Below, one piece after another: positions 20,811-49,322 of a DNA stretch of 64,000 nt. Below the pieces are notes generated by a model. It saw only the letters and a program-made list of their open reading frames with translations. It made no database searches and had not been told where the DNA came from. Position numbers and translations under genes: made by a program. This DNA comes from Thermoplasmatales archaeon BRNA1. GTDB lineage: Archaea > Thermoplasmatota > Thermoplasmata > Methanomassiliicoccales > Methanomethylophilaceae. The stretch covers positions 186,001 to 250,000 of the forward strand of contig CP002916.1 of assembly GCA_000350305.1 (NCBI GenBank), given 5' to 3'. Each line of letters opens with the position of its first letter. Position 1 is the first letter of the stretch.

Positions 20811-22433
20811 ATGTCTTTCGTGGACAGGATCAACGGTGTATCGGACAACAACAACGTCCGCAAGGCCTGGCTGGGTCTCGCCGTGGCGGTGTTCGTCTGC
20901 ATCATCCTGGTCCCCTCCATGTTCGTCGTCACAAAGCTGTTCACCGAGTGGGGCCTGGTCTCCGATGTCCTCGGCTCCGACCAGATGTCGGTGATCCTGG
21001 GAGCGGTCTGGAACTCGTTCTCCCTCGCGATCCTCGTCACCGTGGTGGACATCATCGTCGGACTGCCCATCGCATGGATCATGGTGAGGAGGGATTTCGG
21101 CGGGAAGAAGCTACTGGACACCCTTCTGGATCTGCCGCTGGCGTTCCCGACCGCCGTCCTGGGTCTCTCCGTCCTGATGTTCTGGGGAGCTCCCGAGGGG
21201 GTCACCATCCCCAGCCTCGGCCTCGGTATCGGGCCCTATGCGATGCTGATCCTCCTGCACTTCATCTTCACCTACCCGTATATGGTGAGGTCGCTCTCCG
21301 CGATCCTGGAACAGATCGACTCCTCCTATGAGACGGCGGCCATGACCCTGGGTGCCAGCAGGTTCACCGCCGTGAGGACGATCACCCTGCCCCTGTTCAG
21401 GGCGGGACTGGTCACGGGATTCATCCTCTGTTTCTCCAGGTCCCTTTCGGAGACCGGGGGGACCCTCATCGCCCTGGTGCTGATGAAGGTAGACACCACC
21501 TTCTTCACCGGACCTACATACATCTCCGCCGCCCACGGAGGAGACATGGGGCCGATGATCCTAATCAGCGTCATCATGATCGCCATCGCGCTCCTTCTGC
21601 TGGTGGTCGTGAAACTGCTGGTCACCAAATTCCACATAAAATGGGACAGGATCCTGCCGGATCTGGGAAGGAAGCTGTCAAGGGGACTGGTTCCCAAGGC
21701 CAAGGACATCTCGGCCATCGTATTCCTGTTCCTGGTGATCCTGATCCCGTCGTTCTATATCTTCGCCTACCTGGCGGAGCCCGCCTCCATCGAGACCGGG
21801 GAGTTGCTCGGTTCGATCGGGATGTCGTTCCTCGTCGCGGGTGCCGCAGTGGCGTTCGACATCATCTTCGGAATCCCTGTGGCGATGTACATCGCCAGGC
21901 ACAAGAAGGAGAAAGCCGCGGGAATCGTGGATACTCTTGTGAACATCCCGCTGCTGGTCCCCACCACTGCACTGGGATTCTCACTCACCCTGTTCTGGGG
22001 AGCCGCCCACGGGAGCGGTCCCTATGCGGTCGCCCTGGTCATACTGGGTCATATCGCGTTCACCTATCCTCTGGTGGTCAGGAACATCACCGGGGCCGTG
22101 GAGGAGGTGGACCCCTCGTACGAGGAGACCGCCATGACTCTGGGCGCAAAGCCGTTCCAGGCGTTCTACAAGATCCTCCTGCCGGTCATCAAGTCGTCCG
22201 TCATAGCGGGAGGCATCCTCGCGTTCACCAGGAGCCTTGGGGAGACCGGTGCGACCATCGCGATCGCTCCCGATGTGCGCACCGTGCCCTGCTACATCGT
22301 GGAGCTGGTGAAGGCCGGCCACACCCATTACGCCGAGGCCGCGATGTGTTCCATCGTCCTGATCGCCATCTGCTTCGTGTTCCTCGTCGCGGTCAGGGTG
22401 CTCACCAAGGGGAAGGAGGCGAGACATGACTGA
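20811..22433 (+). CDS. ABC importer permease, two fused permease domains
   Basis: A 540-aa protein of two tandem six-helix permease halves. Each half carries an EAA loop for the ATPase: E-Q-I-D-S-S-Y-E-T-A-A-M-T-L-G-A near residues 168-183 and E-E-V-D-P-S-Y-E-E-T-A-M-T-L-G-A near 430-445. The fold is that of the molybdate/sulfate/iron(III)/thiamine permease superfamily (FbpB-type fusions). The substrate cannot be read from sequence and no binding-protein gene is present. The start is ATG 20811; a GTG at 20802 is possible. It overlaps the ATPase gene by 8 bp. Confidence 0.85.
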   Translation: MSFVDRINGVSDNNNVRKAWLGLAVAVFVCIILVPSMFVVTKLFTEWGLVSDVLGSDQMSVILGAVWNSFSLAILVTVVDIIVGLPIAWIMVRRDFGGKKLLDTLLDLPLAFPTAVLGLSVLMFWGAPEGVTIPSLGLGIGPYAMLILLHFIFTYPYMVRSLSAILEQIDSSYETAAMTLGASRFTAVRTITLPLFRAGLVTGFILCFSRSLSETGGTLIALVLMKVDTTFFTGPTYISAAHGGDMGPMILISVIMIAIALLLLVVVKLLVTKFHIKWDRILPDLGRKLSRGLVPKAKDISAIVFLFLVILIPSFYIFAYLAEPASIETGELLGSIGMSFLVAGAAVAFDIIFGIPVAMYIARHKKEKAAGIVDTLVNIPLLVPTTALGFSLTLFWGAAHGSGPYAVALVILGHIAFTYPLVVRNITGAVEEVDPSYEETAMTLGAKPFQAFYKILLPVIKSSVIAGGILAFTRSLGETGATIAIAPDVRTVPCYIVELVKAGHTHYAEAAMCSIVLIAICFVFLVAVRVLTKGKEARHD

Positions 22434-23568
22434 GATAGTCCTGGAGGACCTGGTGAAGACCTACGGGGGCGACATCAAGGCCTCCGATCACCTGAGTCTT
22501 ACCGTGAGGGACGGGGAATACCTCTGTCTCCTGGGACCCACTGGTTCCGGGAAGACAACGGCACTCAGGGAGATATGCGGGCTCACCGTCCCGGACAGCG
22601 GGAGGGTGCTGTTCGACGGCAGGGACATGTCCGATGTCCCCATCTCCGTTAGGAAGGCCACCATGCTCTCCCAGAAGTACGCCCTGTTCCCCAACATGGA
22701 CGTCTACGGCAACGTGGTGTTCTCTCCCGTGATAAAGGAATGGAGCGAGAAGGACACCCGCCAGCTTGCCACATCCATGATCGACATGGTCCACATGTCG
22801 AAGAAGATCCACAACATGCCCGGGGAACTGTCCGGAGGCCAGCAGCAGAGGACCGCTCTGGCAAGGGCTCTGTCCTCGGAATCCAAGATTCTCCTCCTGG
22901 ACGAGCCGCTGAGGGCGCTGGACGCCAGGCTCAGGATAGAGCTCAGGAAGGAGTTGAAATCCATGGTCCAGGAGATGGGCCTGACATCCATCCACGTCAC
23001 CCACGACCAGGACGAGGCCCTGGAGGTCGCCGACCGCATCGCCATCATCCGCAGGGGGAAGATCGTGCAGGTGGGGACGCCGACGGAGGTGTTCCAGAAC
23101 CCTGCCACCCCGTTCGTGGCGAATTTCTTGGGACGTTCCAACAACTTCACGGGGAAGCTCATCGCGTCGGACACGGACCGTTCTGTGATCGAGATCGCAC
23201 CCGGCATCCTGATAAGTGCCAGATCCACGGATATTCCTCCCGGGGAGGACGTCGTGGTCACCGTCAAGGTGGGAGCGACCGTCCCGGAGATCGTCGGTGC
23301 GAAGGTCGATGTGCAGGACAAGCACAAACCCGACGTGCTTCCCGAGGGGTACTTCTAGGGAACCGTCAGGAGGGTGCTGTACGAGGGGACAACCATAACG
23401 ATAGAGGTGGAGGTCGAAGGCATAGGCCTGGTGAGCGCGAAGCGTTCGTCCAGGAGGTACGAGGCATACAACCAGGGGGACATAGTCGCGGTCACCTGGC
23501 AGCCGGAGAAGGCATCCGTCTTCCGCATCCCGGAGAACGGATTGGAGGACGAACTGAGGCTTGACTGA
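22426..23568 (+). CDS. ABC importer ATPase with in-frame TAG before its TOBE domain
   Basis: A CysA/FbpC/PotA-type ATPase. Walker A is G-P-T-G-S-G-K-T-T (residues 36-44), the signature L-S-G-G-Q-Q-Q-R is near 137-144, Walker B I-L-L-L-D-E-P-L near 155-162 and the H-loop H-V-T-H-D-Q near 189-194. A TAG at 23356-23358 (codon 311) falls in the C-terminal regulatory region. The same frame continues for 69 codons to TGA 23566-23568, reading G-T-V-R-R-V-L-Y-E-G and ending in a typical TOBE strand pattern. The sibling ATPase downstream has an equivalent uninterrupted TOBE domain. Read-through therefore gives a normal 380-aa protein. No ribosome site precedes the downstream part. Confidence 0.82.
23212..23224 (+). 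repeat. Recurrent DNA word ATAAGTGCCAGAT, copy 1
   Basis: An exact 13-base copy inside the first ABC ATPase gene. It is identical to the words at 38242-38254 (reverse) and 55042-55054. See the finding on the recurrent AAGTGCCAGA word. Confidence 0.7.
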
Positions 23569-41700: not shown

Positions 41701-41781
41701 GTGAATTCACCCATCCCACAATCGTTGCACTGGCACATATGGCCTTAGACTTGTCCATATTTAAAGAGGATTCATGTAAGT

Positions 41782-41803
41782 AATCACTCACTGATGAGTG
41801 CTC
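41782..41803. promoter_or_regulatory. Operator-like site between divergent promoters, copy 1
   Basis: It begins AATCACTCACT and contains the inverted repeat CACTCA/TGAGTG (41785-41790 and 41795-41800). Its centre is about 31 bp from a minus-strand TATA (41757-41766) and about 31 bp from a plus-strand TATA (41819-41827). The first 11 bases and several later ones match the site at 48679-48700 beside the TetR gene. Confidence 0.65.
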
Positions 41804-41850
41804 AATCAAACACCTTTGCTTTTTATTCATGGAGAAAGTGGAATTTCAAC

Positions 41851-42012
41851 ATGGGTAACATAACGGAGGCAACCATGGAAGAATCCACCTCGTGTGGAGC
41901 GGGGCGTAGCGGTTTACTCTTTGCCACCCAAATGGCCTCCGTTAACGTTCCCTGCAAGTCGTATTACCTCTCTTTGAACGGCCTGATTGCCCACTCGGGG
42001 TGCGGATCTTGA
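41851..42012 (+). CDS. Small upstream reading frame overlapping the adhesin start
   Basis: It encodes 53 aa from ATG 41851, about where transcription should begin, or 45 aa from ATG 41875, which is preceded by a strong AACGGAGG. It ends in TGA 42010-42012, overlapping the adhesin start region. The peptide has Cys pairs and no recognisable fold. It may be a leader that couples translation to the adhesin, or a chance frame. Confidence 0.4.
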   Translation: MGNITEATMEESTSCGAGRSGLLFATQMASVNVPCKSYYLSLNGLIAHSGCGS

Positions 42013-45000
42013 CACTTTGCCATCTCAGGAAATACACGACAGTGGTATTCGCAATTGCACTCGTCGCAGTCGCAATTGCCTATATCGCAACGGACCTGTC
42101 TCAAGCCGACGAAGATCAGCCCCACACAATCACGTTTGACCCCAACACGGGGGAGGCCAAGGAATCCCGTATTTACGTCGCCGAGAACGTAATCGGTTCC
42201 ATATACATCCCCGGTAACGATTTCACAGTCGATGGTGTCGAGTATGAGTACACAAAGGACGGCTATTCTTTTGTCGGATGGTCTGAAAACCCTAATTCCC
42301 TGACCGCAAACATCATGGAGGGTTCTGTATGGGAAGTCCATGCTGACATGACCCTTTATGCGATCTGGGACGCCAATACATATGACGTCACCCTGCACTA
42401 CGGGAACACAACAACTACCATCGGTGTGAAGTACGGGACCACTACGGACACGACCCATATGATGTTTCTCTCTCCGCCTGGGATGAGTGACTATGTGATT
42501 GTTGGGTGGACAACCTACGATATGGTCGCAGAGGGCGAGAAAGATCTCGGAGGAAACGCATATGTCCTCAGATCCGGAGAAGATGTCGAATACTACTCGT
42601 TGAAGATTGCTCTTAAGAGACCGGGAAACGTTGACAACCTCTACCCGGTGTACGCTTACAAATATGATGTCAGCGGCAACGTCTCCGTGAATCTAGGTTC
42701 GGAGGCGACAGGGTGCTACTATATCACCGGTTCGGCTACAAGCGGTGGCGGGGTGAATATCAGCGGAGGATCCCCGACGCTGTATCTTGATTCGCTTACA
42801 CTCGACTTTTCGGCGAGAACGAATTCGAATTCGGCTCCCGTCGTCATAAGCAACGGCGCGGATGTCACGATCGTGACTCTCAGCGACTGCGTCATCAAAG
42901 GGGGATCCAACCAATCTGTGACTCCCAGGCCATCCGCATATGTCGGATATGCGGGAATCAATGTGAAGTCCGGATCTTCTCTGACAATCTCCTCGGCAAG
43001 CATAGGATCGCTTACGGCCACGGGCGGATCGGTTAAAGCCGTGTATGTAAACAGCGGCTGGGGCGGAACAAGATACAACGCATTCGCGGGGGCCGGAATA
43101 GGGGCGGATGGGAGAAACGGCGGCGATGACGGCTGCGGCTCCATCACCATCAACGGAGGGACCGTGACTGCCACGGGCGGATCTGGCTACATACCATACA
43201 ACAACCCGAACTATTACACCGTGATTTCTGGACCAGGCATAGGGGGGTCCGGTGGCACGGTGACCATCACGACGGGCTGTACCGTTGTAGCAGCATCCGG
43301 AAACCTGGCTCGTTATAGCGGGGAGACATACTACACGACAACTGCGGGGATTGCGCGCGATCCGATATATTGCAGCGTCGAGAATGTCGATCCTGATGCC
43401 AACGTTAGCAGGTTCGGACGCAACACTAGCTCCACGTCGGCACAGACGGTGGCCACTCTTTCGTTCCAATTTACCGGAAGCGTTGTCGGCTCAGCCACCA
43501 GTTTTACGATTGATGGGGAAAACACTGTCAACCTCGGCGGAATCGGAATAGATAATGACACGACGATCGAGATTGATGCCTCTCTGATTTCCGACGGGAG
43601 TACGGTGACCATCACCTCCGCCGCAATGAACTACTTTACCGGGACGGCATACGAAACAGACCCCGAGAACCACATGTTCACAGTCAGGAACATCACGATG
43701 AGTACAGATGCCTACACCGGTACCGTATCATTCAGCGTCAACGGCAGCCTGCTAAGCGAACCCATCGGTTACTACGGTGGAGTCTACAACTACTCGGAGA
43801 GCGGCGGCGAGAGCAGTTACAACTTCTACAACAGTTATTCGCTGGTTCTCGCGGCGAACGGTAGTAATCCTCCGTCCACTACCACTGCTACGGTTCGTTT
43901 TGCATTGGTCCTGTACGAAACCTATTCCTTCCTCGGAATGGAGATCAAGTCCGGGAACAACGGGGTTGAGTTCACCGACTATACTGCCGACTATGACTCT
44001 GTTCAGGGCGCTGTGATAATCTCGGCAAACGTCACGCTGGGCTATGGAAGGGATTCGACGATAGCGAACGACTTGTCGTTCACCATAGACAAGAAGAGTT
44101 ACGAGATCACGATACAGAACGTGTACAGCGGAGGGGACTCGTTCCCCGACGGCATTGTGACCTCTGATACTACCGTCCCTTCTGGCATCTCGTGGAACTC
44201 GGGTAATTCCATAGGCACACACAGAGTCTACCACGACGGAACCGTAACATACGTTGTGAATACGAACAACGAGCCGAGACCGTTCCATTTGGATTCCGTT
44301 ATAGTTGACGGCCGTTCGGTAGGATATGCGGATAATGGCGACGGCACATATTCGTTCACGCTCTACAACGTGGTCTCCGACAGGAACATCGCCATCAATT
44401 TCACGGAAACCGTGATAGTCAAGGCGTATGTGCCTGTAGTGCGGGGCACATCGACTGTTATCGGGACCATGATACTGGTCGACGAATCCGGCAACGCTTT
44501 AGCATCGTCTTACGGAAGCGATTCCGATGGAGAATACTACTATGCCGCAATCGAGAAGAACAAGGCTGTCCGTTTCACCGTGGAAATATTCGGGAACGAT
44601 TACGGTCTTGCTGCCGTCTATGCGATTGCATCCGACATGTCAACGACGCGTATCGGTTACCAATCCGGAGGGGATTACATCCTATCCGCTGTAACGTCTG
44701 ACACCTCCTTGGTTGCAGACGTTACCAACCTCACGTACTGGGTTGTCATTAGAAGCGGCTCCACAGACTACCTGTTCAAGGTCCCTGCCGACTCCTATTA
44801 TGCGGCACCCTCGCTGGAAGAGATCGAATCAATCGGCAGCCTGTACATAAAGAGGGGTTATGAGTTCGGCTACTGGGATATAGTGCAGATCCAAGTGGAT
44901 GCGGATCAGAACGTGACGGTGATTGGGGTGGGAGGCGAGGAATCCAAACTTCCCGGGGAGGAGAGGAAGATAGCCTCTGACATAATGTATAAGGCAGTTT

Positions 45001-46805
45001 GGACAGACACCAAGATAAGTTACAGCCTGTCCTTCGATCTCCAGGGCGGAGAAGCAGATAATCCGGATCACTACTTCATCGACGACGGCACAGTCATCCA
45101 GAACCCCACCCGTAAGGGATATGTCTTCGATTACTGGACAGGCACCGGAATCGATGGGACCGCACAATCCATTGTTTTCGATGCGGACACCTACGGCGAC
45201 AGGGCATACGTCGCCCATTGGACAGAGGCGATATTTCTCCAGGTCGAGTTGAGGGACAACAATCTCCACATCAACCCCGATGATGCTGTCATCGAGGTGC
45301 GCAGTTTCCAGTTCGGATCTGCATACGGCAGTCTCCCCATATTCTCCAACTATACCGACGGGTCGGTGACATACATATTCTACGGATGGGCCCTTCCGGA
45401 CGGAACCAAGATTGATTCCAACACCAGAGTGGACATCTACGATGATCAGTACATAGTCATCATCTGGGTGATCAACCACGGCTTCATCATCAACGTCGAC
45501 AACACTTCGACGGGAGGCGTCATCAGCAGCGTCAGTAGCTGCGCGATTGACACCGAGATTACGGTGAACCTGCTCCCCAGTCAGGGATACACGGCCGTGG
45601 GCCTTCTGATCAACGGCGTCCCCGCCGGTGATTTCGTTGCCGGAAGTTCTACATACACCTTCACTCCAGTCAGCAATACCACTCTGAAGGGCGTGTTCCA
45701 GACCATTGAATACACCGTAACGATCTACACGGGCATCGGCCCCGACTACAGCGATACGCCGATTGTGTACACCTATACCGTCAACGATAATCTGACGATT
45801 TCCTCCGCATCCGTGACATCCATACCCGGGTATGCATTTGACGGATGGTCTCTGCATCCTGGCGGCGAGGTGGCTGTGACCAATGCCATCATCATCGAGT
45901 CCCCCACAACGGTAAACTACACCTACTGGGAGGTTTGGCACATCGTCAAATACCACATAACATACGATCCGTTCAGAGGAGATAACGTTTCAGAATTCAG
46001 CATCGGCGATTCGATAACCCTGGTTCCCATCTCCGTCAGCGGGATGTATTTCGCCGGATGGTTCGACAATGAGGAGTATTCCGGGGACCCTGTCGAATCG
46101 TTCACCGCAACCTCTGACCATGATCTGTTCTTCTACGCCAGACTCATCCCGAAGGCGTATGCTCCTGTGGCGGTTGATTTCGTCTACGATGGCAAGCTGA
46201 AGACTGTAGCGTCAGAGAATGAGACCTATTCGGTCCAGCCCGGAGGAGTGATTTCGGCAACCGACGCAGGAACGTACTCGTTCACCCTATCCCTTGCACC
46301 AGGATACATCTGGGATGACGGAACAACTGACTCGAAGGATTATGTTTGGTCCATCTGTTCACGGCACGTGTATGTGATAGCGGATAGCTCCGAGTGGAGA
46401 TTCGGTCAAACGATCGAAATCGGCGGATTCACCGTCATTGGTCTTGCCGACTCCCATATGCTCAGCGCTTCAGCGGCTCCCGAATCAGAGATTGCCGACA
46501 TCGGCACTTACAGGAACATCATCGATCCGGATTCCGTCACCATCATAGACCAGTATGACGACAGCGTCAAGGCGAACTACATAATCCACCTCACCGACGG
46601 AATGATATCGGTCAGTGACCCGATGTACAGTTCGGTGACTGTCACGGTGGAACCAGGGGATGAAGGGGATTCAGATGGTTTCGGAGCATCACTGAGAGAT
46701 CTTCTTGAATCAGACTCCATGAGGAACGTTGCCCCCTTCCTGATTTTGGCTCTATTCCTGATTATACTCTACGCTGCTCTCTCCTGGAGGTGGGATCGTA
46801 CTTGA
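42000..46805 (+). CDS. Large cell-surface adhesin-like protein with Listeria-Bacteroides repeats
   Basis: A protein of about 1600 aa. It has a basic N-terminus and a hydrophobic signal/anchor helix (about residues 11-33), a long Thr/Ser/Gly/Asp-rich beta region (about 190-700), then several flg_new/InlB-B-type repeats recognised by G-Y-x-F-x-G-W or similar (for example near 90-100, 1040-1050, 1280 and 1350) followed by T-L-Y-A-I-W or its variants. A C-terminal membrane helix (about 1573-1592) ends in S-W-R-W-D-R-T. This is an archaeal adhesin-like protein typical of gut methanogens. The start is GTG 42000; TTG 42009, with GGGGTG upstream, is equally possible. Promoter and operator lie at 41782-41827. 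Confidence 0.85.
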   Translation: MRILTLCHLRKYTTVVFAIALVAVAIAYIATDLSQADEDQPHTITFDPNTGEAKESRIYVAENVIGSIYIPGNDFTVDGVEYEYTKDGYSFVGWSENPNSLTANIMEGSVWEVHADMTLYAIWDANTYDVTLHYGNTTTTIGVKYGTTTDTTHMMFLSPPGMSDYVIVGWTTYDMVAEGEKDLGGNAYVLRSGEDVEYYSLKIALKRPGNVDNLYPVYAYKYDVSGNVSVNLGSEATGCYYITGSATSGGGVNISGGSPTLYLDSLTLDFSARTNSNSAPVVISNGADVTIVTLSDCVIKGGSNQSVTPRPSAYVGYAGINVKSGSSLTISSASIGSLTATGGSVKAVYVNSGWGGTRYNAFAGAGIGADGRNGGDDGCGSITINGGTVTATGGSGYIPYNNPNYYTVISGPGIGGSGGTVTITTGCTVVAASGNLARYSGETYYTTTAGIARDPIYCSVENVDPDANVSRFGRNTSSTSAQTVATLSFQFTGSVVGSATSFTIDGENTVNLGGIGIDNDTTIEIDASLISDGSTVTITSAAMNYFTGTAYETDPENHMFTVRNITMSTDAYTGTVSFSVNGSLLSEPIGYYGGVYNYSESGGESSYNFYNSYSLVLAANGSNPPSTTTATVRFALVLYETYSFLGMEIKSGNNGVEFTDYTADYDSVQGAVIISANVTLGYGRDSTIANDLSFTIDKKSYEITIQNVYSGGDSFPDGIVTSDTTVPSGISWNSGNSIGTHRVYHDGTVTYVVNTNNEPRPFHLDSVIVDGRSVGYADNGDGTYSFTLYNVVSDRNIAINFTETVIVKAYVPVVRGTSTVIGTMILVDESGNALASSYGSDSDGEYYYAAIEKNKAVRFTVEIFGNDYGLAAVYAIASDMSTTRIGYQSGGDYILSAVTSDTSLVADVTNLTYWVVIRSGSTDYLFKVPADSYYAAPSLEEIESIGSLYIKRGYEFGYWDIVQIQVDADQNVTVIGVGGEESKLPGEERKIASDIMYKAVWTDTKISYSLSFDLQGGEADNPDHYFIDDGTVIQNPTRKGYVFDYWTGTGIDGTAQSIVFDADTYGDRAYVAHWTEAIFLQVELRDNNLHINPDDAVIEVRSFQFGSAYGSLPIFSNYTDGSVTYIFYGWALPDGTKIDSNTRVDIYDDQYIVIIWVINHGFIINVDNTSTGGVISSVSSCAIDTEITVNLLPSQGYTAVGLLINGVPAGDFVAGSSTYTFTPVSNTTLKGVFQTIEYTVTIYTGIGPDYSDTPIVYTYTVNDNLTISSASVTSIPGYAFDGWSLHPGGEVAVTNAIIIESPTTVNYTYWEVWHIVKYHITYDPFRGDNVSEFSIGDSITLVPISVSGMYFAGWFDNEEYSGDPVESFTATSDHDLFFYARLIPKAYAPVAVDFVYDGKLKTVASENETYSVQPGGVISATDAGTYSFTLSLAPGYIWDDGTTDSKDYVWSICSRHVYVIADSSEWRFGQTIEIGGFTVIGLADSHMLSASAAPESEIADIGTYRNIIDPDSVTIIDQYDDSVKANYIIHLTDGMISVSDPMYSSVTVTVEPGDEGDSDGFGASLRDLLESDSMRNVAPFLILALFLIILYAALSWRWDRT

Positions 46806-48637: not shown

Positions 48638-48678
48638 TACGTTGTGTTTTTAGACATTTAACAAATCGTTATGTGAAC

Positions 48679-48700
48679 AATCACTCACTACAAAGTGATT
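48679..48700. promoter_or_regulatory. Operator-like site between divergent promoters, copy 2
   Basis: It begins AATCACTCACT and has the perfect inverted repeat AATCACT/AGTGATT (48679-48685 and 48694-48700). Its centre is about 30 bp from the TetR TATA box (48716-48723) and about 31 bp from a minus-strand TATA-like element (48655-48661). The spacing mirrors copy 1 at 41782. Confidence 0.7.
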
Positions 48701-48746
48701 GGTTGCACACCTCTGATATTTATGTAGTGCAGACGATGGAAATGGG

Positions 48747-49322
48747 ATGGCGAATAAGAAGGGGGAGATAATAGATACGACAATACGCCACATTGCCGAA
48801 CGGGGTGACTCTTTTTCCACGGCACAGATCGCATCTGAAATCGGATGTTCTCAATCACTGATATTCAGGTACTACAGGTCAAAGGATCATTTGATGTCGG
48901 AATGTTTCGACAGGATATGCCACGAACTGAAGGTGATTTTCAAAAGTGTGAAAGTTCCAGACGTTCTGGTCCGCGAGTCGGTCATCGAATACATGGTTAA
49001 TGTCTAGGAAGCATATTGTGACCGGCTGGAATCCAACGACCATGTCGCCAAGGCCTACATATTCTTCGTAAGCACTGGCAGACGATTTCCTCATGGCTTC
49101 AGAACCGCTGATGCCGTTCTGAAGAACATACTTAGGCAGGACTATGATCGCTTGAAGAAGGCCTATCCGGATTTCGATTTCGTAGCCGGTTACATCATAA
49201 TGATATCCAACCTCATAGCAACCGGCAAATTCATCGACCGGACATAGTGCGATGACGTGATGGCAAAACTCGAAGAGATCCTCAAATACGGCATTTTGGG
49301 AATCGAAGGGAAAAAAGATTGA
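48747..49322 (+). CDS. TetR-family regulator with two in-frame TAG codons
   Basis: Reading both TAG codons (49005-49007, codon 87; 49245-49247, codon 167) as amino acids gives 191 aa ending at TGA 49320-49322, the usual TetR length. Residues 8-57 form the HTH domain (T-A-Q-I-A-S-E-I-G-C-S-Q-S-L-I-F-R-Y-Y-R-S-K-D-H-L). The part after codon 87 is helical with A-K-A-Y-I-F-F-V and a final A-K-L-E-E-I-L-K-Y-G-I, typical of TetR ligand/dimerisation domains. Stopping at the first TAG would leave only the DNA-binding domain. Its promoter contains an inverted repeat, so autoregulation is likely. TATA spacing suggests a leaderless mRNA. Confidence 0.8.

Follow-up and report, generated by a model that had tools for sequence, protein, structure and literature searches.

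TetR-like regulators carrying an in-frame UAG have been described in pyrrolysine-decoding methanogens, namely MA2902 of Methanosarcina acetivorans, listed since 2007, and a counterpart in M. barkeri (PMC1914089, PMC3639795), and it was stated to be unclear whether MA2902 truly contains pyrrolysine (PMC1914089). Candidatus Methanomethylophilus alvus uses TAG for 1.6% of its stops and encodes 16 putative pyrrolysine proteins outside the methylamine methyltransferases, among them a transcription-factor-like protein; its ambers were read as stable mutations in a suppressing background (PMC4153887). ISO4-H5 has 46 amber genes in all (PMC5011839). The tetR gene of Thermoplasmatales archaeon BRNA1 reported here is like MA2902 and the M. 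barkeri gene by description, as a TetR-family gene with UAG in its frame in a methanogen that decodes pyrrolysine, but there an amber gene occurs in two species, whereas here two ambers occur in one genome. With Ca. M. alvus and ISO4-H5, which belong to the same archaeal order, it shares private in-frame TAGs in assorted genes and a scarcity of TAG stops; the genes concerned are different, and here the replaced residue is identified as an invariant Trp. Since TetR-like UAG genes had already been listed, an amber tetR is a known type of gene, and the statement of an earlier note on this DNA that no such regulator had been described is right about a switch, though not about this type of gene.

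The window is the whole 64-kb stretch analysed, positions 186001-250000 of a single-contig genome of 1,461,105 bases with a completeness of 99.7%. The gene lies on the forward strand at 48747-49322, from an ATG at 48747 to a TGA ending at 49322, and comprises 191 codons when TAG is counted as sense. Codon 87 (49005-49007) and codon 167 (49245-49247) are the in-frame TAGs, both on the forward strand, and a scan of the reading frame for other lesions found no TAA, TGA or frameshift besides these two. Residues 8-52 match Pfam TetR_N (PF00440) with an E value of 2.3e-8 and 34 bits against a cut-off of 24. The AlphaFold2 model of the 191-residue protein, in which TAG was entered as Lys, has a mean pLDDT of 83.5 and consists of 11 helices, including the all-helical C-terminal domain of the TetR fold; the solved structures closest to it in a fold search are TetR regulators (TM about 0.6). 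The TetR/AcrR structures RamR (3vvx), TM1030 (2id6) and that from Rhodococcus (3f1b) resemble the BRNA1 protein in model fold and N-terminal sequence, but fewer than 20% of residues are identical in the fold alignment, and these proteins are encoded by standard codons. By Pfam, fold and homologues the product is a TetR-family regulator, with putative DNA-binding and dimerisation functions, which bears out the earlier description of a 191-residue TetR frame with TAG at codons 87 and 167.

In the model, codon 87 falls in the middle of a helix (76-96), and codon 167 lies within a low-confidence loop (162-168) ahead of the last helix (169-188). A stop at codon 87 would leave the DNA-binding part and half a helix, with the C-terminal domain gone, close to the prior view that the codons before the first TAG are essentially the DNA-binding domain. 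The terminated product would be devoid of the predicted C-terminal helices by which TetR dimers pair.

Eleven other genomes from the archaeal family of BRNA1 yielded 12 distinct full-length collinear homologues, and these homologues identify the sequence behind the TAGs as a true TetR C-terminal domain rather than a chance reading frame. An alignment scan with the TetR protein gave two loci, in a methanogenic archaeon MAG and a Thermoplasmata MAG, both also present among the other homologue matches, while peptide-pattern scans of genome contigs and viral contigs using the TetR protein alone gave no match. The relatives in these two MAGs, along with the methylamine and pyl genes of the source genome, place it among the gut Methanomassiliicoccales. 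The gene is missing from most genomes of the genus, and the gene tree is poorly resolved inside the close TetR clade. In the alignment, which had been proposed as a means of seeing what replaces each TAG, codon 87 corresponds to Trp in 12/12 distinct homologues, encoded by TGG in the six closest, and codon 167 to a variable position in a loop, occupied by E, I, G, T, S or N. None of the 12 has TAG at either position, which indicates that the ambers are private to the source genome and not a conserved device. The TGG codons of the six closest homologues make a single G-to-A transition the simplest origin of the TAG at codon 87. That it stands one base away from their codon would also suit a sequencing or assembly error as the source of the TAGs, but two independent errors would be required, both yielding TAG, in a single-contig genome of such completeness, and the genome-wide excess of TAG described next argues further against an error, which is considered extremely improbable.

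The genes pylT, pylS, pylB, pylC and pylD are all present in the source genome. A tRNA gene with a CTA anticodon adjoins pylS and represents pylT; an ARAGORN run reported no tRNA-Pyl, and the gene was located through its anticodon context instead. Folding of the candidate gave no clear cloverleaf (z −0.47), and its identity follows from the anticodon, the CCA end and the position beside pylS. The pylB gene lies about 550 kb away from the pylT-pylS-pylC-pylD group (loci G000:C1:442315-443328 and L015).

The use of TAG was evaluated in a 477-kb sample made up of 20 genome stretches, the 64-kb window and the pyl region. When TAGs with clear upstream coding in their own frame were followed, 7 of 9 continued in frame into coding sequence, as compared to 15 of 358 for TGA and 1 of 24 for TAA (16 of 382 together; Fisher p = 3e-8). 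Of the stop triplets in all six frames of the sample, 20% are TAG, yet TAG accounts for at most two of about 370 to 390 terminators, which amounts to a strong depletion as terminator in a crude count that leaves out short or atypical genes and has thresholds above the tetR gene itself. Two cruder counts were set aside, one being noisy as it lacked frame competition and the other, made by ORF choice, being rough. The read-through genes to be expected, MtmB, MtbB and an MttB-family protein, were found. According to a recent proposal, every TAG may be read as pyrrolysine in some archaea. Pyrrolysine proteins are recognised in part by a pyl cassette in the host and a TAG within a frame that is homologous on both sides of it, and both are seen for tetR. 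A cassette together with a TAG that is scarcely used to terminate leads one to expect read-through of tetR; pyrrolysine at its UAGs is likely on genomic grounds.

An operator-like site is found in the tetR promoter at 48678-48712 (forward strand), where the inverted repeat CAATCACT-8-AGTGATTG at 48678-48701 is followed by ACACCT. A matching site lies at 41781-41815 on the same strand, upstream of a large repeat-type, adhesin-like surface protein with TIGR02543 repeats (42000-46805, forward strand), a candidate target on account of the shared motif. When 23,758 segments of the 477-kb sample were scored against the tetR promoter, this adhesin promoter, at 41761, came first with a score of 19.5, as against 15.0 for the best unrelated segment. 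Patterns built from both operator-like sites match these two places only in the whole genome, a result that is partly circular, since the patterns were drawn from the same two sites. Independently of these patterns, the tetR homologues in six other genomes have, about as far ahead of the start, a related promoter block of GTGAGTG, then ACACC, then a TATA-like stretch; in two of these genomes, G006 and G012, the block is confined to the promoter of the tetR homologue. The earlier proposal of operators common to about 41782 and 48679 is thus upheld, as the match is clear of background and the motif has relatives in six other genomes. Autoregulation of TetR and its control of the adhesin may fairly be inferred from these sites rather than regarded as demonstrated, and the predicted regulon would comprise two sites, tetR itself and one adhesin.

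A further operator-like match in genome G098 was rejected as chance, as it sits inside a GatB-like gene. In G006 and G012, genes resembling repeat-type surface proteins also lie near the tetR homologue, no more than about 6.5 kb away (L013:4-2211 and L014:790-2079), and the link between regulator and surface protein may accordingly be wider.

Constraint on the gene was assessed from branch lengths. The terminal branch of the source tetR measures 0.33 before the first TAG and 0.37 behind it, and those of the four nearest homologues 0.15-0.42 and 0.30-0.54 on either side of the corresponding position, so evolution behind the TAG has not been quicker than it has among homologues. In both parts, change is heaviest at third codon positions. 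The branch lengths and the codon-position pattern suggest that most of the divergence of tetR arose under constraint on both sides of the first TAG, which speaks against a young pseudogene, a gene whose use was lost, whose Trp codon turned into TAG and which acquired the second TAG later, so that the repressor would be inactive even if read through. The branch lengths leave the age of the TAGs undated, and very recent decay would look identical. Such decay would agree with the loss of a Trp kept in 12/12 distinct homologues, with the evident dispensability of a gene that most genomes of the genus are without, and with a low codon-usage score (0.03) across the first 86 codons. Four further changes affect C-terminal positions conserved in the other six members of the clade and point the same way, but those members carry 1 to 5 such changes each. 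Degradation at many other positions, by which the earlier note would have recognised a simple pseudogene, was not found on comparison with homologues of other species, and the freedom from frameshift, TAA and TGA, together with the retention of the operator motif at both tetR and the adhesin, also weighs against loss of use. About 0.4 of single-step nonsense routes give TAG under a 2:1 transition weighting, and two out of two would arise by chance at about 0.16, which weakly favours a gene that is read. On balance, a young pseudogene appears rather unlikely, but it is the chief alternative to the explanation that follows.

The explanation considered probable is that pyrrolysine is inserted constitutively at ambers that arose by drift, in a local repressor that either works or has been weakened. 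An ordinary TetR protein would bind operators in its own promoter and in that of the nearby adhesin. Its two TAGs would be private, near-neutral mutations (at codon 87 most simply a change of TGG into TAG) which appeared in a lineage decoding UAG as pyrrolysine nearly everywhere and almost never using it to stop; they would be tolerated because the ribosome inserts pyrrolysine and the 191-residue protein is still made. We infer all three of its elements, that is, repression, pyrrolysine insertion and decoding that is constitutive rather than gated. With an invariant Trp lost at the first TAG, the full-length protein may be impaired, and the low codon-usage score also counts against this explanation.

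The earlier note had proposed instead that the balance between truncated and full-length repressor would signal methylamine or pyrrolysine status and could thereby control the adhesin. The anatomy of the modelled protein would permit this, since termination at codon 87 cuts off the C-terminal domain; with two ambers one after the other, the dependence on decoding would become steeper, and the operator is common to the adhesin promoter. UAG decoding is described as trimethylamine-dependent in one bacterium, Acetohalobium arabaticum (as cited in PMC4153887 and PMC8211752). Speaking against a switch, the amber position is kept in none of the 12 homologues, and for the related Ca. M. alvus the scarcity of TAG stops was interpreted as pointing to constitutive decoding (PMC4153887). 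A repressor of this sort, which would be specific to the lineage, would dimerise only after both ambers are decoded, and pyrrolysine shortage would derepress the surface adhesin, a scheme to which little credence is given.

Other amber genes of the same genome bear on this point. An ABC transporter ATPase in the window (22426-23568, forward strand) has TAG at codon 311 inside its TOBE_2 domain, where relatives have G, R or H. A CobT-family phosphoribosyltransferase (L022:9668-10783, reverse strand) has TAG at codon 229, within a conserved domain, at a position that is Glu in 9/9 relatives compared, and a sodium:solute symporter (L033:7600-9114, forward strand) has TAG at codon 363 inside its SSF domain. 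The nearest same-genus relatives of CobT and the ABC ATPase have sense codons and no TAG at these places; these TAGs are as private to the source genome as those of tetR. With read-through occurring genome-wide, CobT included, gating would affect many genes, and with read-through in genes as unrelated as CobT, the symporter, the ABC ATPase and the methyltransferases, nothing marks tetR out for it. The proposed pyrrolysine or methylamine switch finds no specific support and is judged very unlikely; if true, it would make the genetic code the basis of a nutrient sensor.

Amber codons have taken the place of an invariant Trp in the regulator and an invariant Glu in CobT, and UAG acts as a sense codon in this genome. 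If both proteins work, pyrrolysine would be tolerated far outside methyltransferase active sites, and the organism would rely on it for general functions. A frame of 697 codons (L029:17652-19745, reverse strand) contains three TAGs, two of them adjacent at codons 490 and 491, has no Pfam match and is possibly decayed. The CobT of genome G013 is found as two overlapping pieces (L072 and L073, G013:C20) in different frames, with one TGA, possibly owing to a frameshift or an assembly error.
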